Source of the DNA: Geodermatophilus dictyosporus
GTDB taxonomy: Bacteria; Actinomycetota; Actinomycetes; Mycobacteriales; Geodermatophilaceae
Direction: 5' to 3'
Length of the DNA: 64,000 nt
Assembly (NCBI RefSeq): GCF_900115505.1
Contig: NZ_FOWQ01000002.1
Span: forward strand, 186,001-250,000
Under the pieces are notes generated by a model. It had not been told where the DNA came from. It worked only from the letters and a program-made list of their open reading frames with translations, and made no database searches. Made by a program: the position numbers and the translations under genes. The first letter of the stretch is position 1, and each line of letters opens with the position of its first letter. This document shows, in pieces, positions 3,656 through 57,083 of the stretch.

Positions 3656-3716
3656 GGCCCCGTCCAGAGGCTCGCCCCGGGCTCGCGAGGGGTGAGGAGG
3701 ACGGGGTCCTTCGTCA
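3656..3716. repeat. Stem-loop element copy A (GGTCCTTC-tail family)
   Basis: The outer stem is ccccgtcc (3658-3665) pairing with ggacgggg (3699-3706). The inner stem is ctcgcccc (3671-3678) with ggggtgag, containing one G.T pair five positions from the loop. The directional tail ggtccttcgtca follows, and its last three bases are the complement of the nucS stop codon. It lies between the dehydrogenase 5' end and the nucS 3' end. Confidence 0.75.
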
Positions 3717-4397
3717 GAACAGGCGCTGGGTGGGGTCGTCGGTGCCCTTCAGGACGGCGTAGTCGACGGTCACGCAGTCGATGCCCCGGTCGTGCGCCAG
3801 CACCCGCGCCTGCGGCTTGATCTCCTGCGCGGCGAACACGCCCTTGACCGGCGCCAGCAGCGGGTCGCGGTTGAGCAGCTCGAGGTAGCGGGTCAGCTGC
3901 TCGACGCCGTCGATCTCGCCGCGCCGCTTGACCTCGACCGCCACGGTGGTGCCGTCGGCGTCGCGGCAGAGCAGGTCGACCGGGCCGATCGCGGTGGGGT
4001 ACTCGCGGCGCACCAGCGACCAGCCCGCGCCGAAGGTCTCCACGTGCAGGGCCAGCAGCCGCTGCAGCTCGGCCTCGACGCCGTCCTTCTGCAGGCCGGG
4101 GTCGACGCCGAGCTCGTGGGAGGAGTCGTGCTCGACCGACTCGATGGTGATGACCAGCTGCTCACCCGCCTTGTTGGTGACCGTCCAGGTACCCGCTCTG
4201 CCGTCCGGGGTGTCGACCAGCTCGTCCTTGAGGGTGCAGGGCGGCGTCATCCAGTTCAGCGGCTTGTAGGCGCGGTCGTCGGCGTGCACCGACACCGAGC
4301 CGTCGGCCTTGACCAGCAGCAGCCGGTTGGCCATGGGCAGGTGGGCGGTCAGCCGCCCGATGTAGTCGACCGAGCAGCGGGCGATGACCAGACGCAC
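3714..4397 (-). CDS. nucS: Endonuclease NucS, mismatch-specific
   Basis: A 227-residue protein starting [16 protein letters not shown], the typical actinobacterial NucS opening. The N-terminal half is the beta-sandwich DNA-binding and dimerisation domain. The C-terminal RecB-like nuclease domain shows the catalytic Asp in GPVDLLCRD and the Glu and Lys in [10 protein letters not shown], followed by [15 protein letters not shown]. NucS cuts both strands at mismatches and is the core of the non-canonical mismatch repair that replaces MutS/MutL in many Actinobacteria. The start was moved from 4424 to the GTG at 4397 because family members begin there. A TACCGT -10-like box at 4406-4411 ends eight bases before this GTG, so the mRNA may be leaderless. 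Repeat copy A touches the stop codon. Confidence 0.95.
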
Positions 4398-4462
4398 GGG
4401 CGCCGACGGTACCGGTCGGGTCACGGCGGGAACCGCCGAGCCGGGCCGGGCGTCGCAGGACC

Positions 4463-5299
4463 GTGAGGAGCACGCGTCCCGGTCCGGTCGTCACCGCCGT
4501 CCTGCTGCTGGTGCTCACCGCGGCCTGCGCCACGAGCTCCGGCAGCGGCGGGACGGCGCCGTCCCCGGGTCCCGCGCCGCTGCCGGCGGGGCTGGTGCTG
4601 GAGGTGGCGCAGACCGGCGGGTTCACCACGCCGGAGGCGCTGGCCACCCGGCTGCCGGTGGTCACCGTCCACGGCGACGGGCGGGTGTTCACCCAGGGTC
4701 CGCAGATCGCGATCTGGCCGGCGCCGGCGCTGCCGAACGTGCAGGTACAGCAGGTCGGCACCGAGACGGTCCGCGACCTGGTCGAGCAGGCGGTGGCCGC
4801 GGGCGTGACCGATGACGGCGACCTCGGCGAGCCGCCGCTGGCCGATGCGACGACGACCCGCTTCACCCTGGTCACCGACGAGGGCACCGCCGTCCGGGAG
4901 GTCTACGCCCTCGCCGAGACGCCCGACGACACGGTCACCCCCGAGCAGGCCGAGGCGCGAGGCCGGCTGCGCGACCTGGTCGACGCGCTCACCGGGCTGC
5001 CCGCCACCGCGGAGCCGTACGTGCCGCAGACCGTGGCCGCCGTCGTCCGGCCGTACACCGGAGGCGACCCCGAGCTGCCGCAGCCCGACGTCGCCTGGCC
5101 CGGCCCGCAGCTGCCCGGCGTCCCGGTCGGCGCCGGGCTGACCTGCGTGAGCGCCACGGGGCAGCAGGCCGCCGACGTGCTCGCCGCCGCCGGGATGGCG
5201 AACGCGCTCACCCCGTGGGTGACGCCCGACGGCAGCCGCTGGTCGATCGCCTTCCGGCCCGTGCTGCCGCACGAGTCCGGCTGCGCCGACCTGGCCTAG
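4463..5299 (+). CDS. Putative lipoprotein of unknown function
   Basis: The 278-residue product starts with a basic tip and a hydrophobic segment ([14 protein letters not shown]) ending in a lipobox-like LTAAC, so it should be lipidated at Cys21 and held on the outer face of the membrane. The mature part begins with a Ser/Gly/Pro linker. No catalytic motif was recognised. The central [10 protein letters not shown] and [13 protein letters not shown] segments resemble proteins found next to nucS or elsewhere in Actinobacteria, but I cannot name a function. The GTG start follows a cagga sequence. The gene is divergent from nucS and convergent with the enoyl-CoA hydratase, overlapping its end by four bases. 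Confidence 0.75.
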
Positions 5300-6069
5300 T
5301 CCGTCCAGACCGGCGCGCGCTTCTCCAGGAAGGAGTGCATGCCCTCGCGGGCGCCGTCGAGCTGGCTGGTCGCGGCCATGACCTCGACGGCGGTGGTGTA
5401 GGCGTCCCGCTCGGGCCGGTCGAGCTGCGCGTACATCGTCTGCTTGCCGATCGCCTTGCTCGCCCGCGAGCCGCGGATCGCCCGGCCCAGGAGCTCGTCG
5501 ACGGCGGCGTCGAGCTCGTCGTCGGGGACCACCCGGTTGACCAGGCCCCAGTCCAGCGCCGTGCGCGCGTCGATCACGTCACCGGTCAGCGCCATCTCCA
5601 TGGCGCGCTTGCGGCCGACGTTGCGCGCGATGGCGACCATCGGCGTGTGGCAGAACCAGCCGCCCTTGCCGCCGGGGGCGGCGAACCCAGCCGACTCGGC
5701 GGCGACGGCGAGGTCGCAGGAGGCGACGAGCTGGCACCCGGCGGCGGTGGCCAGGGCGTGCACCCGGGCGATGACCACCTGCGGCACCGTCTGGATCGTG
5801 CCCACCAGCTCGGTGCACAGCGCCAGCAGGCTGCGCACCTCCGGCAGTGGCCGGTCGACGACGTCGGCGAAGTCGTGGCCGGCGCTGAACACCGGCCCCT
5901 CGGCGGCCAGCACGATGCCGGCCGCGTCCGAGCGCCCGGCGCCGGTGACGGCCTCGAGCAGCTGGCCCAGGTGCTCCCGGGACAGCGCGTTGCGCCGGGC
6001 CGGCCGGCACATGGTGATGCGGACGACGTCGCCGTCGCGCTCGACGCGGGGAGCTCCCTCGGCACTCAT
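5296..6069 (-). CDS. Enoyl-CoA hydratase/isomerase family protein (ECHDC3-like)
   Basis: A 257-residue crotonase-fold protein. The oxyanion-hole region reads GPVFSAGHDFADV, and the second region reads ATAAGCQLVASCDLAVAA. A GWFCHTPMVAIARNVGRKRA segment is characteristic of the ECHDC3-type subgroup, and TGDVIDARTALDWGLVNRVVP follows. The classical pair of catalytic glutamates of mitochondrial-type hydratases is not obvious in this alignment, so the reaction could be a hydratase, isomerase or another CoA-ester reaction. The long frame extends to 6699, but the ATG at 6069 (MSAEGAPRVERDGDVV) gives the family-typical length. It may work with the nearby tandem 3-hydroxyacyl-CoA dehydrogenase. The start lies very close to the divergent DUF2071 gene. 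Confidence 0.88.
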   Translation of the reverse strand: MSAEGAPRVERDGDVVRITMCRPARRNALSREHLGQLLEAVTGAGRSDAAGIVLAAEGPVFSAGHDFADVVDRPLPEVRSLLALCTELVGTIQTVPQVVIARVHALATAAGCQLVASCDLAVAAESAGFAAPGGKGGWFCHTPMVAIARNVGRKRAMEMALTGDVIDARTALDWGLVNRVVPDDELDAAVDELLGRAIRGSRASKAIGKQTMYAQLDRPERDAYTTAVEVMAATSQLDGAREGMHSFLEKRAPVWTD

Positions 6070-6120
6070 GTGAGCGACCTCACCACGCCCGCCGCCCGTC
6101 CGGCAACGCAGGCTGGGGAC

Positions 6121-6843
6121 GTGCAGCCCGAGGACGTCACCGACACCGCACCCCGCGCCGCCGGCCGGACGCTGTTCAGCCAGGGCTGGCGCGACGTCGC
6201 CTTCCTGCACTGGTCGGTCGACCCCGCGCTGGTCGCCCCGCTGCTGCCGCCGGGGACCGAGCCGGACCTCCACGAGGGCCGCAGCTGGGTGGGACTGGTG
6301 CCCTTCCGCATGCGCCGGCTCGGGTTGCTCGGCTCCCCCGGCCTGCCCTGGGTCGGGTCGTTCCTGGAGACCAACGTCCGGCTGTACTCGGTCGACGCCC
6401 GCGGCCGCCGCGGCGTCGTCTTCCGGTCCCTGGACGCCGACCGGCTGCTGCCCGTCCTGGTCGCCCGCGCCGCCGGCCTGCCCTACCTGTGGTCGCGGAT
6501 GCGGTTCACCCGCGACGGCGACCGGCTGACCTACACCTCCCGGCGGCGCTGGCCCGGTCCCCGGGGGGCCGGCGGCCGGATCGAGGTGCGGGTGGGACCC
6601 CGGCTGGCAGACCCCGGCCCGCTGGAGCGGTTCCTCACCGGCCGCTGGGGCCTGCACGAGACCGTGCTCGGCCGGACGTACTACTGGCCGAACGAGCACC
6701 CCGCCTGGCCGCTGTACCGCGCCGAGCTCCTGACCTGGGACGGCGACCTGCTCGCCGCGGCCGGGCTGCCCGGGATCGGCGGCCCGCCCGACAGCGTGCT
6801 GTTCTCCCCCGGCGTCGACGTCCGCTTCGGCCCGCCGACCTGA
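6121..6843 (+). CDS. DUF2071 (YqjF-like) protein
   Basis: About 240 residues with the DUF2071 pattern: LFSQGWRDVAFLHWSVDPALVAPLLPPG near the N-terminus, then WVGLVPFRMR, FLETNVRLYS, RGVVFRSLDAD and, near the C-terminus, FLTGRWGLHE followed by the HPAWPLYRAEL segment. The family has no established activity. The GTG at 6121 follows a gctgggga purine run and leaves a sensible N-terminus; the GTG at 6070, which overlaps the divergent hydratase start region, is an alternative that would add 17 residues. The gene is followed 59 bases later by a GAF-EAL gene on the same strand. Confidence 0.8.
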   Translation: MQPEDVTDTAPRAAGRTLFSQGWRDVAFLHWSVDPALVAPLLPPGTEPDLHEGRSWVGLVPFRMRRLGLLGSPGLPWVGSFLETNVRLYSVDARGRRGVVFRSLDADRLLPVLVARAAGLPYLWSRMRFTRDGDRLTYTSRRRWPGPRGAGGRIEVRVGPRLADPGPLERFLTGRWGLHETVLGRTYYWPNEHPAWPLYRAELLTWDGDLLAAAGLPGIGGPPDSVLFSPGVDVRFGPPT

Positions 6844-6902
6844 CGCACCGAGTCGTTCCGCAACCCCTTGGGCGGGGCCGCCGCAGCCGGGAGGATGCCC
6901 CG

Positions 6903-8090
6903 GTGACAGCAGCCCCGGCGGCCCGGCCCACCACGACCGACGACGGCGACTGGGTGCACCGGCTGCTCGACCTGGCCCGCGACCGGCTCGGGATGGACAT
7001 CGCCTGGCTGTCGGTGTTCACCGAGGACCGCCAGGAGCTCACCCGGGCGACCGGCGACCTGGCCTCGATGCACGTCGCGGAGGGCATGTCGCTGCCGCTG
7101 GAGGAGTCCTTCTGCGTGCGGGTGCTGTCCGGCCAGCTGCCGCCGGTGGTCACCGCGGCCGACCGCAACCCGGTCACCCGCGACCTGCCGGTCACCCGGA
7201 AGCTGGGGATCGGCTCCTACGTGGGCGCCCCGGTGCGCGCGCCCGACCGCCGTCCGGTGGGGATGCTGTGCTGCCTGAGCCGGGACCCCGGCGAGCAGCT
7301 CGACGGGTCGTCGGTGCGCACGGTCGAGCTGCTCGCCGAGCTGCTCGGCGACCACCTCGCCGCCGAGCAGCTGGCCGAGCGCGAGCTCGCCGCCCGGCGC
7401 GCCCGCGTCCTCGACGTGCTGCACCGGCGGACGGTGACCACCGCCGTCCAGCCGGTGGTGGACATGGCCACCGGCGAGGTCGTGGCGCACGAGGCGCTGT
7501 CCCGCTTCCCGGGCCGCGAGCAGGGGCCCGCGACCCTGTTCTCCGACGCGGCGGCCGTCGGCCTGGGCGTGGAACTGGAGATCCTGGCCGTGCGCACGGC
7601 GCTGGAGACGGCGGCCCGGCTGCCCCGCGACCTGCCCCTGGCGGTCAACCTCTCCCCCCAGGCGCTGCTGGCCCCGGAGGTCGGCGAGCTGCTGCTGCGC
7701 GGGGCGGCCGGCACGGCCCTGACCGTCGAGGTCACCGAGCACAGCCCGATCGAGGACTACCCGGCCGTGCTCGCCGCCCTCGAGCCGCTGCGCCGGGCCG
7801 GCGTCCTGCTCGGCGTCGACGACGCGGGCGCCGGGTACGCCAGCCTCCGGCACATCCTGCGGCTGCGCCCGGACACCATCAAGCTCGACATCGCGCTGGT
7901 CAGCCGGGTCGACACCGACCCCGCGCGGCAGGCGATGACCGCGGCGCTGGTGGCCTTCGCGGGCGAGACCGGCGCCGCGCTCGTCGCCGAGGGCGTCGAG
8001 ACACCCGGCGAGCGCGACGCGCTGCTCGCCCGCGGCGTCCGGCTCGGCCAGGGTCACCTGTTCGGCCGGCCGGCGGTGCCGCCGACCTGA
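6903..8090 (+). CDS. GAF-EAL cyclic-di-GMP phosphodiesterase
   Basis: A 395-residue soluble protein. The N-terminal GAF domain (about residues 10-165) contains LGMDIAWLSVF, the FCVRVLSGQLPPVV segment and GSYVGAPV. The C-terminal EAL domain (about residues 178-395) keeps the catalytic set: Glu in AHEALSRF, Asn in AVNLSPQ, Glu in VEVTEH, the Asp pair in GVDDAGAGYASL, Lys in DTIKLD and Glu in AEGVET. It should therefore hydrolyse c-di-GMP, with activity set by a ligand, redox or light state sensed by the GAF domain. There is no GGDEF domain. The GTG start at 6903 was chosen because the GAF domain begins shortly after it, while upstream codons overlap the DUF2071 gene in another frame. Confidence 0.9.
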   Translation: MTAAPAARPTTTDDGDWVHRLLDLARDRLGMDIAWLSVFTEDRQELTRATGDLASMHVAEGMSLPLEESFCVRVLSGQLPPVVTAADRNPVTRDLPVTRKLGIGSYVGAPVRAPDRRPVGMLCCLSRDPGEQLDGSSVRTVELLAELLGDHLAAEQLAERELAARRARVLDVLHRRTVTTAVQPVVDMATGEVVAHEALSRFPGREQGPATLFSDAAAVGLGVELEILAVRTALETAARLPRDLPLAVNLSPQALLAPEVGELLLRGAAGTALTVEVTEHSPIEDYPAVLAALEPLRRAGVLLGVDDAGAGYASLRHILRLRPDTIKLDIALVSRVDTDPARQAMTAALVAFAGETGAALVAEGVETPGERDALLARGVRLGQGHLFGRPAVPPT

Positions 8091-8094
8091 GGGC

Positions 8095-10128: not shown

Positions 10129-10257
10129 GCCCGCGGAGTGTAGGGCCCGGCTACCCGCCAGTAGCAGACCCGTCGGGGGGACGTCGGTGGTGGCACACTC
10201 GATCGCGCACGGCCGGGCCGACCTGGGCTCTGCCGCCGGTGACCGAAGGAGGTCGGG

Positions 10258-10587
10258 GTGCTCCAGCCGGGCAGCCTCAGCTACATCGCCGGACCGGTCG
10301 TCGCGGTCGTGGTGATGGTGCTGCTGGCCCTCTTCATGCGCTGGGCCTTCGGCACCGGCGGGTCCGGCAGCGTGCGCCGCCGTCCGGCGCCGTCCGACGA
10401 CGGCCTGCTCACCCGCGTGGCCACCCTCTCCCGCCGCGAGTCGGCGCTGGCCTTCCGCGCGGTGCTCTCCGACGCCGGGATCCGGTCCACGGTCCGCTGT
10501 CCTTCGCCCCACCGCGCCGACGTGCTGGTGTTCCCCGAGGACGCCTCCCGCGCCCGCGAGATCGCGGCCTCCTTCCCGGCGGCCTAG
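10258..10587 (+). CDS. Small membrane protein with DUF2007-like C-terminal domain
   Basis: A 109-residue protein with one membrane segment (about residues 10-28, [19 protein letters not shown]), a basic linker, then a cytoplasmic domain with [19 protein letters not shown] and [15 protein letters not shown]. The last part resembles the DUF2007 (putative signal-transducing) fold, in which LVxxEDAxxARxI is a hallmark. The GTG start at 10258 sits eight bases after a strong aaggaggt ribosome-binding site. The stop overlaps the convergent murA stop by four bases. No specific function can be given. Confidence 0.78.
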
Positions 10588-11870
10588 CCGGCGTCGGCGC
10601 GGTCGACCCGCGTGACCTCCGCGCCCAGGCCGCGCAGCTGGTCGACGAAGTCGGGGTAGCCGCGGTCGACGTGGTGCACGTCCTGCACCTCGGTCACGCC
10701 GTCGGAGACCAGCCCGGCCAGCACCAGGCCGGCGCCGGCGCGGATGTCGGTGGCCACCACGGGCGCGCTCGACAGCCGCTCCCGGCCGCGGACGACGGCG
10801 TGGTGGCCGTCGATGCGGACGTCGGCGCCCAGCCGGACCAGCTCGTTGACGAACATGAACCGGCCCTCGAACACGTTCTCGGTGATGAGCGCGGTGCCGG
10901 TGGAGACGGCGGCCAGCGCGACGGCCATCGGCTGCAGGTCGGTCGGGAACCCCGGGAAGGGCAGCGTGACGACGTCGACCCCGCGGGGCCGCTCGTCCAT
11001 GGCCACCCGCACGCCGCCGTCGACGACCTCCACCGTGGCGCCGGCGCCGACCAGCTTGTCCAGCGGGACGGCGAGGTGCTCGGGAACGGCCCGCTCGACG
11101 ACGACGTCCCCGCGGGTCATGACCGCCCCGATGCACCAGGTGCCGGCCACGATCCGGTCGGGGACGGTGGTGTAGGTGACCGGCGCCAGCTCGGTGACGC
11201 CCTCGACGGTGAGCGTGGAGGTGCCCGCACCGTCGATGCGCGCCCCCATCGCGGCGAGCATCGAGCAGATGTCGACGATCTCCGGCTCGCGGGCGGCGTT
11301 GTCGATGACCGTCGTGCCCTCGGCGAGCACGGCCGCCATGAGCAGGTTCTCCGTGGCCCCCACCGAGGGGAAGTCCAGCCAGATCGACGTGCCGCGCAGT
11401 CGCGGGGCGCTGGCCACCAGGAAGCCGTGCTCACTGTGGATCGAGGCACCCAGCCGCTCCAGGCCGGAGATGTGCATGTCCAGCCCGCGGGAGCCGATCG
11501 CGTCGCCGCCGGGCAGGGCGACCCGGGCGCTGCCGCAGCGCGCCACCAGCGGGCCCAGCACGCTGATCGACGCGCGCATCCGGCGCACCAGGTCGTAGTC
11601 GGTCTCGGTGGCCGGGTCGTCGGGGACGTCGACGACCACCCGCCCGCCGCCACCGGACAGACCCGACCGCTCGTAGGTGACGCCGCAGCCGAGCCGGCGC
11701 AGCACCTCGCTCATGATCGAGACGTCGAGGATGTCGGGCACCTCCTCGACGGTGGTCCGTCCGGAGGCCAGCAACGCGGCGGCCATGAGCTTGAGGGCGC
11801 TGTTCTTCGCCCCCGTGACGCGCACCCGGCCGGTCAGGGCCGTGCCGCCGGTCACCTCGAAGCACTGCAC
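10584..11870 (-). CDS. murA: UDP-N-acetylglucosamine 1-carboxyvinyltransferase MurA, Asp active-site variant
   Basis: A 428-residue EPSP-synthase-fold enzyme that transfers enolpyruvate from PEP to UDP-GlcNAc, the first committed step of peptidoglycan synthesis. The [15 protein letters not shown] start, [18 protein letters not shown] and FPTDLQP segments are diagnostic. The catalytic loop reads [11 protein letters not shown]: Asp123 replaces the usual Cys (position 115 in E. coli), the residue alkylated by fosfomycin. M. tuberculosis MurA has the same Cys-to-Asp change and is intrinsically fosfomycin resistant. The GTG start is six bases after a TAGGGT -10 box, so the transcript is probably leaderless. 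Only one murA-like gene is present in this window. Confidence 0.96.
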
Positions 11871-11876
11871 CGGGAC

Positions 11877-11882
11877 ACCCTA
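11877..11882 (-). promoter_or_regulatory. -10 box TAGGGT for leaderless murA
   Basis: On the minus strand TAGGGT is followed by six bases and then the murA GTG. That places the expected transcription start on the first base of the start codon. No ribosome-binding site could fit in the gap. Confidence 0.55.
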
Positions 11883-11885
11883 GTT

Positions 11886-11944
11886 GGCCCCGCTGCAGGG
11901 CCCCGCCGCGAGCCTGCGAGCGGTGGGGGGCAGCGGGGTCCTTC
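11886..11944. repeat. Stem-loop element copy B, inside a divergent promoter region
   Basis: The outer stem is ccccgctgc (11888-11896) with gcagcgggg (11930-11938). The inner stem is ccccgccgc (11901-11909) with gcggtgggg (11920-11928), with the G.T pair five positions from the loop gagcctgcga. The tail is ggtccttc. Unlike the other copies this one lies between two gene starts rather than beyond a stop codon. Confidence 0.8.
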
Positions 11945-11950
11945 TAGGCT
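11945..11950 (+). promoter_or_regulatory. -10 box TAGGCT for leaderless adenosyltransferase gene
   Basis: TAGGCT is followed by seven bases and then the ATG at 11958, with no Shine-Dalgarno sequence. It directly abuts the tail of repeat copy B, so the repeat occupies the -35 region. Confidence 0.55.
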
Positions 11951-11957
11951 CGCCGGC

Positions 11958-12563
11958 ATGACGGTCCGGCTGACGCGCATCTACACGAAGACCGGTGACG
12001 CCGGCCAGACGCACCTGGGCGACATGAGCCGGGTGACCAAGACCGACCCCCGGCTGGTCGCCTACGCCGACGTCGACGAGGCCAACAGCGTGCTGGGGAT
12101 CGCCCTGGCCCTCGGGTCGCCGTCGCCGGAGCTCACCGAGCTGGTCCGCAGCGTGCAGAACGACCTGTTCGACGTCGGCGCCGACCTGTCCACGCCGGTG
12201 GTGCCCGACCCCGCGCACCCGCCGCTGCGGGTGACCGCCGCCTACACCGAGCGGCTGGAGGCGGCCTGCGACGAGCACAACGAGACGCTGCCTCCGCTGA
12301 CCAGCTTCGTGCTGCCCGGGGGCACCCCGCTGGCGGCACTGCTGCACCAGGCGCGGGTGGTCGTCCGGCGGGCCGAGCGCAGCGTGTGGGCGCTGCTGCA
12401 GGCCGACGGTGGGCGCACCAACCCCGAGACCGCCCGTTACCTCAACCGGCTCTCCGACCTGCTGTTCATCCTCGCCCGCGAGGCCAACCCGGACGGCGAC
12501 GTGCTCTGGGAGCCCGGCGCGCACAGCGGCGTCCACGCCCAGCGGGCGGCCCGCGACAGCTAG
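11958..12563 (+). CDS. Cob(I)yrinic acid a,c-diamide/cobalamin adenosyltransferase, PduO type
   Basis: A 201-residue helical-bundle protein of the PduO-type ATP:cob(I)alamin adenosyltransferase family. The ATP-binding N-terminus TRIYTKTGDAGQTHLGD, the VDEANSVLG helix and FVLPGGTPLAALLHQARVVVRRAER with the RYLNRLSDLLFILAR segment are all diagnostic. It attaches the adenosyl group to cobalamin, making the cofactor for the neighbouring MeaA-type mutase and delivering it. The gene is divergent from murA and convergent with the DUF2550 gene, whose stop it overlaps by four bases. The ATG start is preceded by a -10 box at leaderless distance. Confidence 0.95.
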   Translation: MTVRLTRIYTKTGDAGQTHLGDMSRVTKTDPRLVAYADVDEANSVLGIALALGSPSPELTELVRSVQNDLFDVGADLSTPVVPDPAHPPLRVTAAYTERLEAACDEHNETLPPLTSFVLPGGTPLAALLHQARVVVRRAERSVWALLQADGGRTNPETARYLNRLSDLLFILAREANPDGDVLWEPGAHSGVHAQRAARDS

Positions 12564-13382: not shown

Positions 13383-13514
13383 GACACTCCTCCGGGTCCA
13401 CCGACGAACGGTGCTCAGGACGCCGGCCGGGAAGCGGGCACGGCGACGGTCGGCCCCACTCTAGCGGCGGGCGCCCCGGCACCCGGTGGCGGCCGGGTGA
13501 CGTGCTGGAACGGT

Positions 13515-13572
13515 CACCCTCCAGGGGCCGCGCCGAGCGTGCCAGGCGTGGGGGAAGGGTGGTCCTTCGTCA
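13515..13572. repeat. Stem-loop element copy F, between atpD and atpC
   Basis: The outer stem is caccct (13515-13520) with agggtg (13556-13561). The inner stem is cgcgcc (13529-13534) with ggcgtg (13545-13550), with a G.T pair five positions from the loop gagcgtgcca. The tail ggtccttcgtca follows, and its last three bases are the complement of the stop codon of the small open frame 13570-13758. Confidence 0.7.
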
Positions 13573-13758
13573 GGCCGCGCGGCGGTAGAGCAGGGTCCAG
13601 CGGCCCACGCGCACCCACGGGTGGCGGACCGTGGAGGCCGGCGCCCAGTCCTCGGTGTCGAAGCGCCGGGCGTCGACGTGCGGCACCGGGGCCGACGGTG
13701 GCCAGGTCCAGCCCGGGTCGGGGCCACCGGCCCTGCTCGTGGCATCCAGCCAGTCCAT
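13570..13758 (-). CDS. Possible small protein inserted between atpD and atpC
   Basis: A 62-residue frame beginning MDWLDATSRAGG and ending VGRWTLLYRRAA, rich in Trp, Pro and Asp. The ATG is preceded by gggaga at suitable distance on the minus strand. Sequence such as DTEDWAPASTVRHPWVRVGRW looks like protein rather than noise, but I do not recognise a family. The stop codon coincides with the tail of repeat copy F. If real, it is an extra gene inside the atp operon; the upstream part of the same frame (to 14055) overlaps the end of atpD and the hairpin and is not credible. Confidence 0.45.
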   Translation of the reverse strand: MDWLDATSRAGGPDPGWTWPPSAPVPHVDARRFDTEDWAPASTVRHPWVRVGRWTLLYRRAA

Positions 13759-13941
13759 CGTCGTCTCCCACAACCGAGCGTCCGGTCCCTCCGGGCGCCA
13801 CCTGCTCGATCGGCAGGCAGACTCCCGTGCTTGAGGGCGCATCCGCCAGCCCCGATGCCCACGGACGGCGGAGACGAACCACCCGGCCGGGTGCACTCCT
13901 GGCCGGTCCCGACGCTGCGTGAGGGACCGCGCACGACCCGG

Positions 13942-13988
13942 ACGCTCGACGGCCGGGTCCCCGTGGCGGGGACCCGGCCGTCGAGCGT
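13942..13988 (-). terminator. 21-bp hairpin just beyond atpD
   Basis: Arms 13942-13962 and 13968-13988 are exact complements with a five-base loop. The hairpin begins 17 bases after the atpD stop. It lacks a long T run, as is common in high-GC Actinobacteria. It would be expected to end or reduce transcription before atpC. Confidence 0.7.
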
Positions 13989-14005
13989 CTCGTGCCGGGG
14001 TGGCG

Positions 14006-15532
<1,527 letters not shown>

Positions 15533-26218: not shown

Positions 26219-26282
26219 TGGCCCCGCTGCGAGGTCCCACCGCGAGCGTGCGAGCGGTGGGGGCAGCAGGGTCCCTTCCTCA
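26219..26282. repeat. Stem-loop element copy C, after rho
   Basis: The inner stem is cccaccgc with gcggtggg around the loop gagcgtgcga. At the position that is G.T in copies A, B, D and F this copy has an A-T pair. The outer arms are ccccgctgc and gcagcaggg with one mismatch, and the tail ggtcccttcctca ends on the rho stop codon. A second partial arm (ggccccgctgcc) lies just upstream near 26204. Confidence 0.75.
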
Positions 26283-28547
26283 GTCCCGCTCGGGGCCCAG
26301 CGTCGTCTTCTGGATCTGCATGAGGAACTCGATGTTGTTGCGCGTCTTGCGCAGCTTGTCGAGCAGCAGCTCCAGCGCCTGCTGCGGCTCGAGCGCGGCG
26401 AGCACCCGGCGCAGCTTGATGACGATGGCCAGCTCGTCGGGCGAGAGGAGGATCTCCTCCTTGCGCGTGCCCGACGCGTTGACGTCGACCGCCGGGAAGA
26501 CCCGCTTGTCCGCCAGCCGGCGGTCGAGCTTGATCTCCGCGTTCCCCGTGCCCTTGAACTCCTCGAAGATGACCGTGTCCATCGTCGACCCGGTCTCGAC
26601 CAGCGCCGAGGCGAGGATGGTCAGCGAGCCGCCGTTCTCGATGTTGCGGGCGGCGCCGAGGAAGCGCTTGGGCGGGTAGAGCGCGGTGGAGTCGACACCA
26701 CCGGAGAGGATGCGCCCGCTGGCGGGCGCGGCCAGGTTGTAGGCGCGGCCCAGTCGGGTGATCGAGTCCAGCAGGACGACGACGTCGTGGCCCATCTCGA
26801 CCAGGCGCTTGGCGCGCTCGATCGACAGCTCGGCGACCGTGGTGTGGTCCGACGGCGGCCGGTCGAAGGTCGAGGCGATGACCTCGCCCTTCACCGACCG
26901 CTGCATGTCGGTGACCTCCTCGGGCCGCTCGTCGACGAGGACGACCATGAGGTGGCACTCGGGGTTGTTCGTGGTGATCGCGTTGGCGATCGCCTGCAGC
27001 ACCATCGTCTTGCCGGCCTTGGGCGGCGAGACGATGAGGGCGCGCTGCCCCTTGCCGATCGGCATGACCAGGTCGATGACCCGGGTGGTCAGCTGGTGCG
27101 GCTCGGTCTCCAGCCGCAGGCGCTCCTGCGGGTAGAGCGGCGTCAGCTTGGTGAACTCCGGCCGGTTGCGGGCCTGCTCGGGGTCCAGGCCGTTGACCGA
27201 GTCGAGGCGGACCAGCGCGTTGTACTTGTCCTTGCGCTCGCCCTCGCGCGGCTGCCGGACGGCGCCGGTGATGGCGTCGCCGCGGCGCAGGCCGTGCCGG
27301 CGCACCTGGGACAGCGACACGTAGACGTCGTTCGGCCCGGTCAGGTAGCCCGACGTGCGGACGAAGGCGTAGTTGTCGAGGACGTCGAGGATGCCGGCCA
27401 CGGGCAGCAGGACGTCGTCCTCGCTGACGGTGGGCTCGGTCGGCTGGTCGAAGCGCTCCCGGCCGTTGCGGCGGTTGCGGTCGCGGTAGCGGCGGCCGCG
27501 GCGGCCGCGGCCGCCCTCGAAGTCGTCGTCGTCCTCGTCGGTGCGGTCGTCGGTGCGGTTGCGGTCGTCGGTCCGGCCGCGCTCGTCGGTGCGGTTGCGC
27601 TCGTCGGTGCGGTTGCGCTCGTCGGTGCGGTTGCGCTCGGTGCGGTCCGGCCGGCCACCGCGGTCGGTGCGCTCGCCGCGGTCGGGGACGCGGTTGCCGT
27701 CCCGGGTGCCCTCGCGGCCGCCGTCCCGGTTGCCGTCGCGGCCGCCGTCGCGGCTGCGCTCGCCGTCGCGGTTGCCGTCCCGACCGCGCTCGGCGCGCTC
27801 GCCGTCGCGGGCGGTGCCGTTGCCGTCGCGGGTCCGCTCGGCGCGCTCGCCGTCGCGGTTGTCCCGGCCGTCGCGGGTGCGGGTGCGGTCGCGGCGCGGG
27901 CGGTCGCCCTCGGTGGGGTCACCCTCGCTGCGCTCGCCGTCGGTGCGCTCACCGTCGGTGCGCTCGTCCTCGGTGCGCTCGGCGGGCGGGGTGGTGACGG
28001 GGCCGCCGTTGGCGCCTCCGCTGACGGGGGCCTCGAGCGGCGCGGCGGTCGCGGCGACGCCGCGCGCGGCGGGCGCGCCGGAGTCCTCGGCGGCCGGCGC
28101 GCCGGCGGGACGGCTGGCGGCGCGGCGGCGGCGCGGCGCGCTCCCGGCGCCGTCGGCGGCCGGGGTGGTCAGGGGGCCGCCGTTGGCGCCTCCGCTGACG
28201 GGGGCCTCGAGCGGCGCGGCGGTGGCGGCGACGCCGCGCGCGGCGGGCGCGCCGGAGTCCTCGGCGGCCAGCGCGCCGGCGGCCGGGGCACCGGGGGCCG
28301 GGGCACCGCCGCCCTGCTCACCGCCGACCTGGCGGGCGGAGATGGCGGCGACGAGGTCGCCCTTGCGCATGCGGCCGGTGCCGGAGATGCCCAGCTCGGA
28401 CGCGAGCCGCTGGAGCTCGGGGAGCAGCATCCCGGCCAGCCCGCTGCCGCGGCGGCGCGACCGGCCCGCCGTCCCCGGAGCAGCAGGTGCCTCACCCGCG
28501 GCGCCCTCGGGGGCACCGACGGTGGTGAGGTCGGTGGTTTCGCTCAC
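26280..28547 (-). CDS. rho: Transcription termination factor Rho with large Arg/Asp/Gly-rich insert
   Basis: A 755-residue Rho (E. coli 419). The N-terminal helix bundle [17 protein letters not shown] is followed by an insert of about 300 residues: Ala/Pro-rich with a 34-residue duplicated block (96-129 and 154-187), then many RDG, RTDER and RAER repeats (about 190-350). The RNA-binding fold begins near 378 ([24 protein letters not shown]), and the ATPase core carries the P-loop SPPKAGKT (507-514) and [16 protein letters not shown]. Rho unwinds RNA to end transcription; long inserts of this kind in Actinobacteria bind extra RNA and aid termination on structured transcripts. A sigma70-like promoter lies 190 bases upstream. 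Confidence 0.96.
28001..28282. repeat. Intragenic 174-bp-period duplication in rho
   Basis: Bases 28001-28108 and 28175-28282 are nearly identical (over 100 bases, few differences), spaced 174 bases apart, exactly 58 codons. They encode the repeated block ending in [11 protein letters not shown]. The close identity at DNA level implies a recent duplication or continuing gene conversion. Confidence 0.85.
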
Positions 28548-36999: not shown

Positions 37000-37071
37000 G
37001 CCCCCGTAGCTCAGGGGATAGAGCACCGCCCTCCGGAGGCGGGTGCGCAGGTTCGAATCCTGCCGGGGGCA
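37000..37071 (+). tRNA. tRNA-Arg (anticodon CCG)
   Basis: A complete cloverleaf: acceptor stem gcccccg with cgggggc, D arm gctcaggggatagagc, anticodon stem ccgcc/ggcgg with loop ctccgga (anticodon CCG), and T arm gcagg-ttcgaat-cctgc, then discriminator a. The CCA end is not encoded. It reads the CGG codon, frequent in this GC-rich genome. A 17-bp hairpin follows. Confidence 0.97.
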
Positions 37072-46464: not shown

Positions 46465-47022
46465 GTGGAGGTCGTCGAGCTGCAGGCCGCGCACTGCGAG
46501 GCGCTGCTGCGCTTCTTCGGAGGGCTGCCCGAGGGCGACCTGACCTTCATCGAGGAGGAGGTCACCGACCCCGACGTCGTCCGCTCGTGGGCGGCGGGCA
46601 AGGCGCCGGGACGGCGGTGGGTCGCCCTCGACGGCGACGCCGCGGACGGCGGCGAGGTGGCCGGCTACGTCGCCGTCCGGCCGCTGCCGGGCTGGTCCTC
46701 GCACGTGGGCGAGGTGCGGCTGGTGGTCTCCCCCACCCGGCGCGGCTCCGGGCTGGGCCGCCGGCTGGCCCGCCAGGCGCTGGTGTCGGCGGTCGGCGAC
46801 GGGCTGGGCAAGCTGGTCGTGGAGGTCGTCGCCGAGCAGGGCTCGGCGCTGGCTCTGTTCACCGCGCTGGGCTTCACCGGGGAGGCGCTGCTGCGCGACC
46901 ACGTCCGCGACCGCGAGGGGGAGCTGCGCGACCTCATGGTGCTGGCCCACCACGTCGACGAGACCTGGTCGGGCATGGCCACCGTCGGCCTCGACGAGGC
47001 CCTCGGCCCAGACCTGAGCTGA
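46465..47022 (+). CDS. GNAT-family N-acetyltransferase
   Basis: A 185-residue acetyltransferase-fold protein. The acetyl-CoA loop appears as VVSPTRRGSGLGRRLARQAL, preceded by EVAGYVAVRPLPGWSSHVGEVRL and followed by KLVVEVVAEQGSALALFTALGF. The motif LTFIEEEVTDPDVVRSWA in the N-terminal part is typical of an actinobacterial subgroup of unknown substrate. The GTG is two bases after the phaC stop, so it is probably in the same operon. Confidence 0.9.
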   Translation: MEVVELQAAHCEALLRFFGGLPEGDLTFIEEEVTDPDVVRSWAAGKAPGRRWVALDGDAADGGEVAGYVAVRPLPGWSSHVGEVRLVVSPTRRGSGLGRRLARQALVSAVGDGLGKLVVEVVAEQGSALALFTALGFTGEALLRDHVRDREGELRDLMVLAHHVDETWSGMATVGLDEALGPDLS

Positions 47023-47040
47023 GTCCGGTTCCGTCTCCCG

Positions 47041-47098
47041 GCCTCCCTGCAGGGGTCCGCCGCGAGCCTGCGAGCGGTGGGGTGCGGGGAGGTCCTTC
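47041..47098. repeat. Stem-loop element copy D
   Basis: The outer stem is cctccctgc (47042-47050) with gcggggagg (47084-47092), including one T.G pair. The inner stem is ccgccgc with gcggtgg and the G.T pair five positions from the loop gagcctgcga. The tail ggtccttc ends 18 bases before the ABC-F stop codon. It lies between convergent genes. Confidence 0.8.
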
Positions 47099-47116: not shown

Positions 47117-48754
<1,638 letters not shown>

Positions 48755-49952: not shown

Positions 49953-50053
49953 GGCGACCGGCCCCCGGGTCAGTCCGTCGTACGGACGTCGGGCAGGCGG
50001 ACCACGTCGCGCACTGTAGTGACCGCCGTCGCAGCGGGCGGCGCCACCGGCGT

Positions 50054-50086
50054 CCGGTGGACGGCCGGTGGACGGCCGGTGGACGA
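50054..50086. repeat. Three tandem 11-bp repeats
   Basis: The unit ccggtggacgg occurs three times in a row (third copy with one change) in the divergent gap between the cyclase and the ABC transporter genes. The gap 49953-50215 holds no gene; these repeats could be binding sites. Confidence 0.7.
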
Positions 50087-50215
50087 CCGGCGACGCGCGG
50101 GCCGGACGTGCCGCGCGCCCGGCCGGGTGCGCCAGGATGGGCACCGCACGGGGGTGCACGACGAGGGGGACACGTCATCGCGACGACGGCCAGCGGCCCG
50201 GCCGGGCACCGACCC

Positions 50216-51915: not shown

Positions 51916-51957
51916 GGAGCACCCGGACGACCGCCACCCACGACAAGGGGGACCCGG

Positions 51958-52758: not shown

Positions 52759-52887
52759 CCCACCACCGGCGGGCCGGTCCCCGACCCTCGGGCGCAGGCC
52801 GCTGCACGCCGAGGAGCCCTGCCGGCGGGCGTAGACTCCGTCCCCGGTCCAGAGACGCCCACCGACGACGAAGAAGGCACTCGACCC

Positions 52888-55800
52888 GTGTCACGCGACA
52901 ACGCATCCCGGCCGTCCTCCACCGCCTCCTCGTCCGCGGTGGCCGGATTCGGCACCAACGAGTGGCTGGTCGAGGAGATGTACCAGCAGTTCCTGGCCGA
53001 CCCGTCCAGCGTGGACCAGGCCTGGCACGAGTTCTTCGCCGACTACCGGCCCGGCAGCCCGGTCGCCGCCAGCGACGACCGCGGGTCCGCCTCGGCCCCC
53101 TCGACCCCGGCCTCGACCGCCTCGACCCCGGCCACCTCGACCCCGGCGGCCCCGGCTCCCTCGACCCCCGCTCCCTCGGGCAACGGCTCGCCGGCCGCGT
53201 CGCAGCCCGCCCCGGCCGCCCGGCCCGCACCGCAGCCGGCGCCCCCGGCTGCCGCCACCTCCCCCGAGCGTCCGGCCGGGGCCGACGCCGAGGGCTCGGC
53301 CACCCGGCCCGGCAGCCCCGCCGTCGCGCCGGGCGCACCCAAGCCCGCGCCCCGGTCCACCCCGGTCCCCGAGCGCACCGAGGCCACCGTCGTCGACCAG
53401 GCCGCCGACCGCGCCGACCAGAAGGTGAAGGCCGCGCCGGCCCCGGCCCGGCCGGCCCCGGCCCCCGCCCCCGCCTCCGACGGCCCCCGGCGGACGCCGC
53501 TGCGCGGTGCCGCGGCCAGCGTCGTCAAGAACATGAACGCCTCGCTCACCGTCCCGACGGCGACGAGCGTGCGCGCGGTGCCGGCCAAGCTGCTCGCCGA
53601 CAACCGCATCGTCCTGAACAACCACCTGAAGCGCTCGCGCGGCGGGAAGGTGTCGTTCACCCACCTGATCGGCTACGCGCTGGTCCGGGCGCTCGACGAC
53701 TTCCCGAACATGAACGCGGCGTTCGCCGAGGTCGACGGCAAGCCGACCCTCGTGCAGCCGGAGCACGTCAACTTCGGCCTGGCCATCGACCTGCCCAGGT
53801 CCGACGGCTCCCGCTCGCTCGTCGTCGCCTCGATCAAGGGCGCCGAGCAGATGGACTTCGCCCAGTTCTGGGGCGCCTACGAGGACGTCATCCGCCGCGC
53901 CCGCGCCGGCAAGCTGACCCTCGAGGACTTCCAGGGCACCACCATCAGCCTGACCAACCCCGGCACGATCGGCACCGTCCACTCGGTGCCGCGGCTGACG
54001 GCCGGTCAGGGCGCGATCATCGGCGTCGGGGCCATGGAGTACCCGGCCGAGTTCCAGGGGATGAGCGCCGAGGCGCTGACCGAGCTCGGCATCTCCAAGA
54101 TCATCACGCTGACCTCGACCTACGACCACCGGATCATCCAGGGCGCCGAGTCCGGCGACTTCCTGCGCCGGCTGCACCAGCTGCTCCTCGGCGAGGACGG
54201 CTTCTACGACGACGTCTTCCGGTCGCTGCGCTGCCCCTACGAGCCGGTGCGCTGGATGCCCGACGTCCGGGTCAGCCGCGAGGGGGAGATCGACAAGGAA
54301 GCCCGGGTCATCGAGGTCATCGAGTCCTACCGGCGCAACGGCCACCTGCTGGCCGACACCGACCCGCTCGAGTTCAAGGTCCGCAGCCACCCCGACCTGG
54401 ACATCCTCCAGCACGGGCTCACGCTGTGGGACCTCGACCGCACCTTCCCCGTCGGCGGCTTCGCCGGCGAGAGGGTCATGGCCCTGCGCGACATCCTCGG
54501 CGTGCTGCGCAACTCCTACTGCCGCACCGTCGGCGTGGAGTACATGCACATCACCGACCCCGAGGAGCGCGAGTGGCTCCAGTCGCGGGTCGAGGTCAAG
54601 GCCGAGCAGCCCGACCGGGAGAAGCAGAAGCACATCCTCGGCCGGCTCAACGCCGCCGAGGCGTTCGAGAACTTCCTGCAGACCAAGTACGTCGGGCAGA
54701 AGCGGTTCAGCCTCGAGGGCGGCGAGTCGCTGATCCCGGTCCTCGACGAGGTGCTCATCGCCGGCACCGACCACGGCCTCGACGAGGTCGCGATCGGCAT
54801 GCCGCACCGCGGCCGGCTCAACGTGCTGGCCAACGTGCTCGGCAAGAGCTACGCCAAGATCTTCGGCGAGTTCGAGGGCAACATCGACCCCGGCACCGTG
54901 CAGGGCTCCGGCGACGTCAAGTACCACCTCGGCGCCGAGGGGACCTTCGAGAACCCCTTCCGCCCGGGTGCGCGGATCGACGTCTCGCTGGCCAGCAACC
55001 CCTCGCACCTGGAGACGGTCAACCCCGTCCTCGAGGGCGTCGTCCGCGCCAAGCAGGACATGATCGACAAGGGCGAGGAGGGCTTCACCGTCCTCCCGGT
55101 CCTGCTGCACGGGGACGCGGCCTTCGCCGGCCAGGGCGTCGTGGCCGAGACGCTGAACCTCTCCCAGCTGCGCGGCTACCGCACCGGCGGCACCGTCCAC
55201 GTCGTCGTCAACAACCAGGTCGGCTTCACCACCAGCCCGGCCTCGTCCCGGTCGAGCCTCTACTCGACCGACGTCGCGCGGATGGTCAACGCGCCGGTCT
55301 TCCACGTCAACGGCGACGACCCCGAGGCGTGCGTGCGGGTGGCCCGGCTGGCCGTGGAGTACCGGCAGGCGTTCAAGAAGGACGTCGTCATCGACCTGGT
55401 GTGCTACCGCCGCCGCGGGCACAACGAGGGCGACGACCCGTCGATGACCCAGCCCCTGATGTACGAGATCATCGACCGCAAGCGCTCGGTGCGGAAGCTC
55501 TACACCGAGGCGCTGGTCGGCCGCGGCGACATCACGCTGCAGGAGGCCGAGGAGGCCCTCAAGGACTACCGCGGGCAGCTCGAGCGGGCCTTCGCCGAGA
55601 CGCACGACATCACCGAGAGCCCGAAGCCCCAGCCGGTCATGGACCAGCCGGCGCAGCAGGTCTCGACGGTCACCACCGCCGTCTCGGCCGAGGTGATGAA
55701 GGCGATCGGCGACGCGCACGTGTCGCTGCCGCAGGACTTCACCGTGCACCCGAAGCTCAAGCGGCTGCTCGAGCGGCGCGCGGCGATGGTCAGCGAGGGC

Positions 55801-56841
55801 GACATCGACTGGGCCATGGGCGAGCTGCTCGCCTTCGGGTCGCTGCTCATGCAGGGCGTGCCGGTGCGGCTGGCCGGCCAGGACTCCCGCCGCGGCACGT
55901 TCGTGCAGCGGCACGCGGTGCTCATCGACCGGGAGACCGCCGGGGAGTACACGCCGCTGGCGCACCTGTCCGACGACCAGGCGAAGTTCTTCGTCTACGA
56001 CTCGCTGCTCAGCGAGTACGCCGCACTCGGGTTCGAGTACGGCTACTCGGTGGCCGACCCCCGGGCACTGGTCCTCTGGGAGGCGCAGTTCGGCGACTTC
56101 GTCAACGGCGCGCAGATGGTCATCGACGAGTTCATCTCCTCCGGCGAGGCCAAGTGGGGGCAGCGCTCGGGCGTGGTGCTGCTCCTGCCGCACGGCCTCG
56201 AGGGCCAGGGACCGGACCACTCCAGCGGCCGCATCGAGCGGTTCCTGCAGCTGTCGGCGGAGAACAACATCACCGTCGCCAACTGCTCGACGCCGGGGAA
56301 CTACTTCCACCTGCTGCGCCGGCAGGCGCTCTCCGACGTGCACCGGCCGCTGGTCGTGTTCACGCCGAAGTCGCTGCTGCGCGCCAAGGCCGCCGTCAGC
56401 CCGGTCGCGGACTTCACCGACGAGGGCTTCCGGCCGGTGCTCGCCGACCCGGGCGTGGGCGGCGAGCCACTCGAGGACCCCGCCGTCCGCCGGGTGCTGC
56501 TGTGCAGCGGCAAGGTCTCCTACGACCTGCTCGCCCAGCGCGAGGCCGAGGGGCGCACCGACACCGCGGTCGTGCGCGTCGAGCAGCTCTACCCGCTGCC
56601 GGCCGAGGAGATCCGCCAGGCCGTCGGGCGCTACCCGAACGCCGACGACCTGGTCTGGGTGCAGGAGGAGCCGGCGAACATGGGTGCCTGGCAGTTCATG
56701 GCCTGCAACCTGCCCGAGCACCTCGACGGCCGGGCGCTGCGCCGCGTCAGCCGCCGGGCCTCGGCCAGCCCCGCCGTCGGCTCGGCCAAGGTGCACGAGG
56801 GAGAGCAGCGGGAGCTGGTCGCACAGGCCTTCGCGGGCTGA
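52888..56841 (+). CDS. kgd: Multifunctional 2-oxoglutarate metabolism enzyme (Kgd/SucA with E2-like domain)
   Basis: A 1317-residue single chain. The N-terminal E1o segment (20-52, [20 protein letters not shown]) is followed by an Ala/Pro-rich linker (about 55-205), longer than in M. tuberculosis Kgd (1231 residues). An acyltransferase domain without a lipoyl domain ends at the catalytic [12 protein letters not shown] (His414). Next comes the thiamin-diphosphate E1 part, with [25 protein letters not shown] (from 809) and [13 protein letters not shown]. Family members decarboxylate 2-oxoglutarate to succinic semialdehyde, condense it with glyoxylate, or act as E1/E2 of the dehydrogenase. In mycobacteria it is inhibited by GarA. 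Confidence 0.97.
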
Positions 56842-56847
56842 GCACCG

Positions 56848-57033
56848 GTGTACTTCACCGATCGGGGGCTGGAGGAGCTGGCCGACCGGCGGGGCGAGGA
56901 GCAGGTCACCCTCGCCTGGCTGGCCGACCAGCTCCAGGCCTTCGTCGACCAGAACCCGGAGTTCGAGGTACCGGTCGAGCGGCTGGCCACCTGGCTGGCG
57001 CGCGGCGGCACCGACGACGTCGACGACGACTGA
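56848..57033 (+). CDS. DUF6104 family small protein
   Basis: A 61-residue acidic protein starting MYFTDRGLEELADRRGEEQVTLAWLADQLQAFVDQNPEFEVPVERLATWLAR. Nearly the same short protein follows kgd in Streptomyces and other Actinobacteria, annotated as DUF6104. The GTG start lies six bases after the kgd stop, so it is co-transcribed with kgd and may affect that enzyme, which is inference. Its stop codon abuts repeat copy E. Confidence 0.85.
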   Translation: MYFTDRGLEELADRRGEEQVTLAWLADQLQAFVDQNPEFEVPVERLATWLARGGTDDVDDD

Positions 57034-57083
57034 GGAAGGACCCCCCCTCGCACGCTCGGGGCCGGATCCTGCGAGGGGGCCAC
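57034..57083. repeat. Stem-loop element copy E, inverted orientation
   Basis: Directly after the TGA of the DUF6104 gene comes ggaaggacc, the reverse complement of the family tail, then a 10-bp perfect stem ccccctcgca (57043-57052) with tgcgaggggg (57070-57079). The position five from the loop is a T-A pair. No clear outer stem was found, so this copy is degenerate. Confidence 0.6.

Follow-up and report, generated by a model that had tools for sequence, protein, structure and literature searches.

The window, which is the whole stretch of Geodermatophilus dictyosporus DNA analysed (64,000 nucleotides), contains six copies of an intergenic hairpin. All six copies reported in the initial annotation exist, five of them full length and the sixth truncated. 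Their positions, together with one additional left flank, are as follows.

3656..3712, plus strand: copy 1, full two-tier hairpin with tail.
11886..11944, plus strand: copy 2, full; between divergent genes 10584-11870 (minus) and 11958-12563 (plus).
13496..13511, plus strand: left flank of copy 3, GGTGACGTGCTGGAAC, a long-left-end version.
13512..13568, plus strand: copy 3, full.
26220..26278, plus strand: copy 4, full, with A-T at pair 5.
47040..47098, plus strand: copy 5, full; between convergent genes 46465-47022 (plus) and 47117-48754 (minus).
57035..57081, minus strand: copy 6, truncated, with part of the 3' arm missing; covariance-model score 25.2 bits.

Comparison of the window with Rfam at the gathering score gave no match except the tRNA at 37000-37071. 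Copies 1, 3, 4, 5 and 6 lie at gene 3' ends, as had been described, and copy 2 lies between divergent genes. The tail of copy 1 is followed by 1 nt and then by the stop codon (TCA on the plus strand) of the minus-strand gene 3714-4397; the same 1-nt spacing separates copy 3 from the stop (TCA) of the minus-strand ORF 13570-14055, and copy 4 from the stop of the minus-strand gene 26280-28430. For copy 5 the facing stop is 18 nt away and the other stop 17 nt. Copy 6 adjoins TGA 57031-57033, with which a short predicted plus-strand gene (56848-57033) ends, and the tail of copy 2 is flush with a -10-like TAGGCT. The 3' tail GGTCCTTC said to be shared by all copies is exact in five, copy 4 having GGGTCCCTTC, and the usual loop GAGCNTGCGA is exact in four of the six. 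At the fifth pair from the loop, four copies were correctly read as G.T and one as A-T; the T-A assigned to the remaining one was an error, since the truncated copy 6 has G against G there and its full-length ortholog in genome G023 has G-C.

The family is real and far larger than six copies. A covariance model built from five window copies and used to search the genome and its relatives, a check that had been proposed, gave at least 150 matches in the own genome, a number that includes the five training copies; 149 of these matches had E ≤ 0.0075 and at least 144 had E ≤ 1e-4. Further copies were thus found both in the genome and in its relatives. The loop motif occurred at 83 places versus 35 for a reversed control. 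By the same model the element was present in all 24 other genomes of the genus, with 18–137 matches in each of 25 genus genomes and more than 100 in 22 of them. Within the family Geodermatophilaceae, 85 of 96 genomes and 9 of 12 genera had matches, and none were found in 16 genomes of other families of the order, so that among the genomes searched the element is confined to the Geodermatophilaceae. These are soil and stone-dwelling bacteria, which often carry more than 100 copies per genome of an element that as a rule starts directly at a gene's stop codon. Thirteen of the 150 own-genome matches listed lie inside called genes, four of these also having a stop codon at the tail, and the remaining 137 are intergenic. 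Among the papers listed by searches of an open-access library, none was recognised as describing this hairpin family; in one of them the word 'palindromic' refers to CRISPR (PMC9686282).

Most copies measure 57–61 nt and consist of an outer stem of about 11 bp, a 5' bulge of 4–5 nt, an inner stem of 8–9 bp, a loop mostly of 10–12 nt (140 of the 143 parsed copies, 7 more having failed to parse) and an unpaired 3' tail CTTC. About a fifth have a further left flank; the last ten bases of that of copy 3 recur with at least 8 matches in 33 of the 150 own copies listed. In an alignment of 124 own-genome matches, which does not include every locus, 94.3% of the cells were paired, and 303 cells were double-changed versus 82.7 in shuffled alignments, none of 500 shuffles being as high and slid controls giving 18–49. 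The structure, including the compensating stems of the initial annotation, is therefore strongly supported by covariation. The conserved non-GC pair also held: inner pair 5 is a G.T wobble in 87 of 122 copies, and outer pair 2 in 114 of 122. Compared by eye, close copy pairs from the own genome and G006 differ by wobble changes, by A.C changes and, once, by a base pair lost symmetrically, which does not demonstrate compensation in place.

The claim that the structure is strand-specific was borne out, the tail-bearing strand folding better in 116 of 118 copies with RNA parameters and in 109 of 118 with DNA parameters; the comparison was limited to copies of at least 50 bits, and the model that found them itself contains the wobbles. 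Sporadic G.T pairs outnumber A.C pairs on the tail strand by 62 to 17. The initial annotation had left open a reading in RNA, which is awkward because the tail strand is antisense to the gene whose stop it faces in 115 of the 137 intergenic copies; in 69 of these 115 the other neighbour, too, lies on that opposite strand. In G023 the first half had 47 plus and 32 minus copies, and the second had 23 plus and 42 minus (p 0.005; clusters collapsed to 144 places). Nothing follows from this on a replication-strand bias, because no dnaA was recognised among the eight gene calls at position 1 of G023 and the sampled skew had no clear switch.

A further observation, beyond those of the initial annotation, is that the tail is set directly against stop codons. 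Setting aside the 13 copies within called genes, the tail was flush (-4 to +3 nt) with the stop codon of the facing gene in 95 of 115 copies, when 22.5 were expected and the maximum in 20,000 simulations was 38. Between convergent genes, which offer a stop on either side, the tail end was flush in 37 of 46 cases and the 5' end in 8 of 46. Stop-facing neighbours on the tail side lie at a median of 1 nt; for start-facing neighbours the median is 85.5 nt on the 5' side (80 copies) and 42.5 nt on the tail side (22 copies). The stops of the flush genes are TGA in 70 cases, TAG in 23 and TAA in 2, which rules out a target restricted to TGA. The tail overlaps the stop in 29 of the 95 flush copies; that the element supplies its own stop codon was mostly rejected, since element-free orthologs usually keep a stop at or near the same residue. 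Convergent gaps make up 44 of 136 gaps with an element versus 41 of 309 others, and divergent gaps 11 of 136 versus 58 of 309; two of the 11 divergent-gap copies have a missed coding frame at the tail.

Comparison of syntenic sites between species showed, among the sites listed, empty sites, one scar, half remnants and one site with opposite element orientations in G006 and G023. Copy 1 is common to the own genome and G006, and at its site G002 has a 10-nt scar, GGCCCCGTCC followed by TTC. Copy 2 is present only in the own genome and G006 among six syntenic genomes. The site of copy 3 is occupied in the own genome, G002, G023 and G017, with differing stems, and is without the element in G006 and G010. 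That of copy 4 is empty in G006 (58 nt shorter), G002, G017 and G010, and holds a different copy in G023; the stop of the adjoining gene is TGA with the element and TAG without it. Copy 5 is present in the own genome and G010, with a half remnant in G023. No target-site duplication was seen at the compared syntenic sites, and one loss left its scar between direct repeats. Many of the presence/absence differences could be losses rather than insertions, no insertion having been polarised by outgroups.

Many orthologous gene ends are without the element, several of them, judged by eye, carrying an ordinary terminator-like hairpin instead. Orthologous ends keep an element more often than others do, 37 of 98 versus 10 of 183 (281 ends; pairs without an ortholog or a stop omitted, and an element within 60 nt in either orientation counted as present). 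Copies at orthologous ends are on average no more alike than random copies. The gene-end groups, of 13, 8 and 6 copies, were restricted to copies that matched the stored read over their first 30 bases and are smaller than the count by eye; the first random pairs came from copies of the same region, possibly including orthologous pairs, and random own-copy pairs (0.805) were added.

The enzyme proposed in the initial annotation, a RAYT transposase reading REP elements, did not withstand the search. With Y1_Tnp (PF01797) at E ≤ 0.001 no match was obtained in the own genome, in the 24 other genomes of the genus or in the 96 of the family (partly the same genomes), and a control set gave matches in 5 of 14; on this result a RAYT or any other Y1 transposase was rejected. 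RVT_1 exceeded its cut-off in 12 of 25 genomes and was found neither in the own genome nor in G006, so a reverse transcriptase (a retron, group II or DGR route) is not required. No integron integrase scored over the curated cut-off in 25 genomes; sub-threshold matches were present in all 25, as in 14 controls.

The element is probably a miniature mobile hairpin, REP-like and strand-specific, that settles at gene ends in genomes in which no RAYT was found. It would be mobile or copied, and what is recognised would be its tail-bearing strand in a folded, single-stranded form that we infer to be DNA; the loop, the tail and both conserved G.T wobbles would mark strand and end. At insertion the tail end would be set flush with a stop codon or sometimes with a -10-like box, these being likely the main T/A-containing words between genes in a genome of 75% GC, which suggests a T/A-word rule. 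Stop codons and -10 boxes, besides being T/A words, mark functional borders, so the flushness could also be a product of selection. Also weighing against this reading are the lack of a target-site duplication at the compared sites and the hairpin foot, where GTAG and CGTC do not occur in the arrangement typical of known REPs. Insertion, beyond mere loss, is presumably still continuing through some non-RAYT activity, and a deletion that spans the hairpin between short direct repeats can remove a copy. At occupied ends the element may insulate or terminate transcription. A bolder form of this proposal, which we put forward tentatively as possible but doubtful, is a living mobile-hairpin system working on the single-stranded tail strand without Y1/RAYT, with an end-specific rule that sets the 3' end on stops and with gene ends as fixed addresses having changing tenants across a bacterial family.

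The conserved gene-end addresses also fit function in place, and the main rival is a functional 3'-end element, namely a family-specific terminator, insulator or stabiliser of mRNA 3' ends directly behind the stop, the copies being kept as useful. Enrichment in convergent and depletion in divergent gaps, addresses conserved across species and the ordinary terminator-like hairpins of several element-free orthologs speak for it, as does the lower frequency of a second perfect hairpin (at least 8 pairs) in convergent gaps with the element, 5 of 37 versus 11 of 26 without, the gap lengths being unequal; in tandem gaps, however, the element does not go with fewer such hairpins (11 of 41 versus 10 of 68). 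Moreover, the better-folding strand is mostly antisense to the gene with the facing stop, 11 copies lie between divergent genes (two of them with the missed coding frame at the tail), many orthologous ends do without the element, and a T-rich stretch (at least 5 T in the 10 nt after the hairpin) was found on the sense side in 0 of 150 copies and on the tail side in 7 of 150. On this evidence we consider the functional element unlikely, if still the strongest competitor of a mobile hairpin. A fossil REP population, spread by a RAYT or another Y1 transposase that the family ancestor then lost, with copies that now only decay, are deleted or are reshuffled by gene conversion, would explain the missing Y1_Tnp in the genomes searched and the visible deletion losses, but we hold it to be improbable in view of the 18–137 matches in each of 25 genus genomes, the spread over 9 of 12 genera and the intact own-genome pairing; syntenic DNA within the genus is about 79–94% identical in the longest matches, and an unmaintained palindrome should have decayed. 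Least probable is that the element is a MITE derived from an ordinary DNA transposon whose short terminal repeats are TGAS...STCA: some long-left-end copies begin with TGA[CG]G, TGA occurs at -14 in 28 of 150, and TCA or CTA usually comes next after the right end, yet most copies do not have that left end, no target duplication was seen, and the right-hand trinucleotide is usually the stop codon, kept at or near the same residue in element-free orthologs.

The spread of GTAG REPs is usually linked to RAYT transposases. In the present case a large population of structurally intact palindromes occurs in at least nine genera with no RAYT found in the genomes searched; either such a population can be maintained by another enzyme or without one, or its copies are of use at gene ends. 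The stop-codon rule of the tail end and the conserved G.T pairs are sharp, testable handles in dozens of harmless species with sequenced genomes.

GTAG-tagged REPs are described as high-copy intergenic palindromes with a strand-specific fold and a conserved stem irregularity, located near gene 3' ends and often supplying the stop codon (PMC3733652, PMC8266576). The present element is likewise high-copy and mainly extragenic (at least 150 matches, 13 inside called genes among those listed) and, judging from its sequence, appears to share the strand-specific fold close to gene 3' ends. It differs from those REPs in its size (mostly 57–61 nt versus 20–50), its loop of mostly 10–12 nt, its G.T wobbles instead of a bulge and its conserved 3' tail flush with the stop, and in that the Geodermatophilaceae genomes searched had no Y1 transposase match. 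GTAG stood directly 5' of the hairpin in 0 of 150 copies; at a distance of up to 8 nt, 1 of 150 had it on the tail strand, and 7 of 150 had it on the opposite strand. CGTC-tagged REPs, among them Rickettsia RPE-4/6 and Neisseria dRS3, are said to be palindromes without a dedicated transposase, with a CGTC tag, a single stem of 8–9 bp and a loop of 4–5 nt (PMC3733652). The element resembles them, as there described, in that no Y1 transposase was found in the genomes searched, and differs in its two-tier stem and longer loop; CGTC was adjacent to its 5' foot in 2 of 150 copies and within 8 nt in 14 of 150, versus 9 and 12 in control windows.

MIRU elements have the target DTGA. They are actinobacterial interspersed repeats thought to be mobile, with a short ORF, inserted at gene borders and start codons (PMC12548453), whereas the present element is a hairpin with its tail at stop codons. 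In integrons, the attC site is a bottom strand that folds behind a gene's stop codon, the strand being chosen by stem irregularities. PMC8266576 names IntI among proteins acting on folded single strands. By analogy, a fold behind the stop codon and a choice of strand by stem irregularities may be common to attC and the present element, which is, unlike attC, dispersed rather than arranged in cassette arrays, in genomes (25 searched) with no integrase over the curated cut-off. A terminator scan limited to loops of 3–8 nt, too short for these hairpins to be caught, called no site at the six copies. Intrinsic terminators are similar as strong GC-rich hairpins behind stop codons; the element is set apart from them by the lack of a T-run, by its conserved loop, bulge and tail sequence, by the better fold on the antisense strand and by the copies located between divergent genes.

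Direct reading of the sequence placed six copies of the stem-loop element where the initial annotation had put them (near 3656, 11886, 13515, 26219, 47041 and 57034, the last inverted). Five of them show the same two-tier hairpin in full, and the sixth is truncated:

57035-57081, minus strand, truncated sixth copy; its ortholog in the relative G023 is full length.

A full copy is built from an outer stem (GGCC...GGTC), a bulge of about AGGG on its 5′ side, an inner stem with a loop of 10 bases, and the tail CTTC; the strand that bears this tail is called the tail strand. Four copies with G.T and one with A-T were confirmed at the pair five positions from the loop, and the T-A pair also claimed there does not exist. 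The window contains, in addition, 12- and 18-nt tandem repeat runs inside an open frame (27511-27942) and a tRNA gene (37000-37071), which was the sole Rfam match.

A covariance model built on five window copies (R1) was used for genome searches. At least 150 matches were obtained in the own genome, the five training copies included (144 at E ≤ 1e-4 and 149 at E ≤ 0.0075), in agreement with the expected existence of copies beyond the six. All 24 other Geodermatophilus genomes contained matches (from 18 to at least 137 apiece), and more than 100 were found in 22 of the 25 genus genomes, the own one counted. With stricter filters, R1 matched 85 of 96 Geodermatophilaceae genomes, representing 9 of 12 genera; no match was obtained in any sampled genome of genera g21, g24 and g26, nor in two single genomes of other, element-bearing genera, G057 and G116, which are candidates for loss (cut-off E ≤ 1e-4). 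None of 16 genomes from other families of the order had a match. An exact core pattern matched at least 115 stretches, and the 80 titles among the matches listed all named Geodermatophilus, Blastococcus, Modestobacter, Trujillonella, Geodermatophilaceae bacterium or Frankiales MAGs. Short clusters of elements, with certain units devoid of outer stem ends, were observed at G023:C1:3845182-3845341, at loci L264:5495-5640 and L191:6977-7104, and in the own genome at C9:56115 and 56285.

The alignment of own-genome matches (A3; 124 matches, 122 distinct), which was fitted to the model and is hence biased towards it, had 94.3% of its cells paired and both-side changes at 13 of 20 pairs. Double-changed cells numbered 303, versus 82.7 in shuffles (none of 500 reaching 303) and 18–49 in a slid-partner control. 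Two wobbles were conserved: 114 of the 122 distinct matches had G.T at outer pair 2, and inner pair 5 was G.T in 87 of them, G-C in 21 and A-T in 12; a model-free parse of pair 5 in 143 copies gave G.T 99, G-C 25, A-T 13, C-G 1 and 5 unpaired. When both conserved wobbles and the two edge pairs were left out, the tail strand showed 62 sporadic G.T/T.G pairs (20 from one single pair and possibly inherited) versus 17 A.C/C.A. Furthermore, the tail strand was the more stable of the two when folded, in 116 of 118 copies using RNA parameters and in 109 of 118 using DNA parameters. On the basis of the conserved wobbles, the G.T excess and this stability, it appears to be the tail-bearing single strand whose fold is kept.

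Genes were called by a home-made codon model on 477 kb of the own genome. Thirteen of 150 copies were inside called genes, and the remaining 137 had both neighbours, whose orientations (left/right gene, tail on the right) were </< 69, >/< 46, >/> 11 and </> 11. The tail faced a stop codon in 115 of the 137. In 95 of these 115 the stop started at −4 to +3 nt relative to the end of the tail, with the tail overlapping it in 29 of the 95; uniform placement in the same gaps predicted 22.5 flush copies (maximum 38 in 20,000 simulations). Between convergent genes (n = 46), the tail end was flush in 37 copies and the 5′ end in 8, the 5′ end being 9–13 nt off in 8 further copies, where a TGA can be contributed by the extended left flank TGA[CG]GTGCTGGAAC. 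Stop-flush placement is an end-specific rule. Since the tail is flush with the stop, the abutted gene, read on its sense strand, is followed from its stop by few or no bases, GAAGGACC and the hairpin. The better-folding strand is antisense to that gene. The other copies (n = 55) had a stop-like trinucleotide at the tail in 21 cases, versus 1–6 in control windows; eight of the 21 terminate long, strongly coding-like frames missed or set aside by the gene calls, and visual inspection classed about nine as −10-like boxes (CTAGGGT, for example).

Such a box (TAGGCT, TAGGGT) adjoins, by eye, tails that do not face a stop, at 11945-11950 and in some eight further own copies; a gene start often lies no more than about 20 nt away and is possibly leaderless. 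The two halves of the G023 chromosome differ in element strand (47+/32− versus 23+/42−).

Synteny was compared over two regions of the own genome, a 17-kb stretch carrying five copies, in 20 relatives, and the window, in five. Close species differ in element presence in the window regions. Orthologous ends carried an element in 37 of 98 cases where the own genome has one within 60 nt, versus 10 of 183 where it has none. Of 36 ortholog pairs in a separate set, selected in part, a strict pattern detected the element in 13 and visual inspection in 18; several element-less orthologs bear, by eye, ordinary terminator-like hairpins. The copy at 26220 is missing from G006, in a region 58 nt shorter; site 47040 retains half an element in G023; and at one convergent site the G006 and G023 elements are oppositely oriented, each tail being directly followed by TCA. 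Loss across the hairpin was seen once, at site 3656, where G002 has a scar with the hairpin deleted between two GTCC repeats. Copy identity averaged 0.788 over 131 orthologous pairs, and 0.788 and 0.805 for random pairs of the same region's copies and of own copies, respectively. Individual orthologous pairs, mostly among close relatives, reached 0.90–0.95; four of five pairs between the own genome and G006 were clearly the same copy (0.90–0.95) and one was different (0.80). The low mean, in genomes 79–87% identical, can reflect replacement or rapid change that stays within the constraints on the family.

At the copy-6 site (window 57035), G006, G002 and G017 have a second hairpin-like family, delimited by GATCAGGT[GC]ACC[TC]GATC palindromes and seen, by eye, after stop codons elsewhere too; it has one site in 477 kb of the own genome (C11:207582, in L057) and nine in the relatives' loci.

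It is possible that the element acts as a terminator or insulator at the gene ends that it occupies, which is the main rival explanation. Element gaps are indeed overrepresented between convergent genes and underrepresented between divergent ones, and another perfect hairpin is less frequent in element-bearing convergent gaps; however, tandem gaps showed no such replacement. The antisense position of the better folder also argues against this function, as do the lack of a T-run (sense side, 0 of 150; tail side, 7 of 150) and the many orthologous ends lacking the element. The terminator scan has no bearing on the question because its loop limit excludes the element hairpins.

A RAYT (TnpA_REP) gene, suggested by the initial annotation, was not found: Y1_Tnp (PF01797), the domain of RAYT transposases, was detected in 0 of 1 own genome, 0 of 24 other genus genomes and 0 of 96 family genomes, with 5 of 14 positive in the control set. 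The own genome lacked a reverse transcriptase, and no integron integrase scored over the cut-off in any of 25 genomes. Since REP-like features are present and no Y1_Tnp was found, we propose that the element is REP-like and RAYT-less and has its 3′ end placed at T/A words. Such an element would insert next to T/A words by an activity other than RAYT; at a genomic GC content of 75%, stop codons and −10 boxes would account for most of these words, and a single sequence rule would explain both addresses.

No description of this element family, of the two conserved wobbles or of the end-specific stop-codon rule was found in the open-access literature searched. The likeness to REP elements lies in short palindromes near gene ends, a folded strand that would be recognised and a stem irregularity distinguishing the strands. 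According to PMC3733652 and PMC8266576, REPs lie near gene 3′ ends, their termini supply stop codons, and recognition by the E. coli enzyme requires stem mismatches. A difference from RAYT-linked REPs is the lack of Y1_Tnp in the searched genomes. CGTC-type REPs are reported, in PMC3733652, as having no dedicated transposase; since REPs described in this way are already known, the element is not a wholly new kind.
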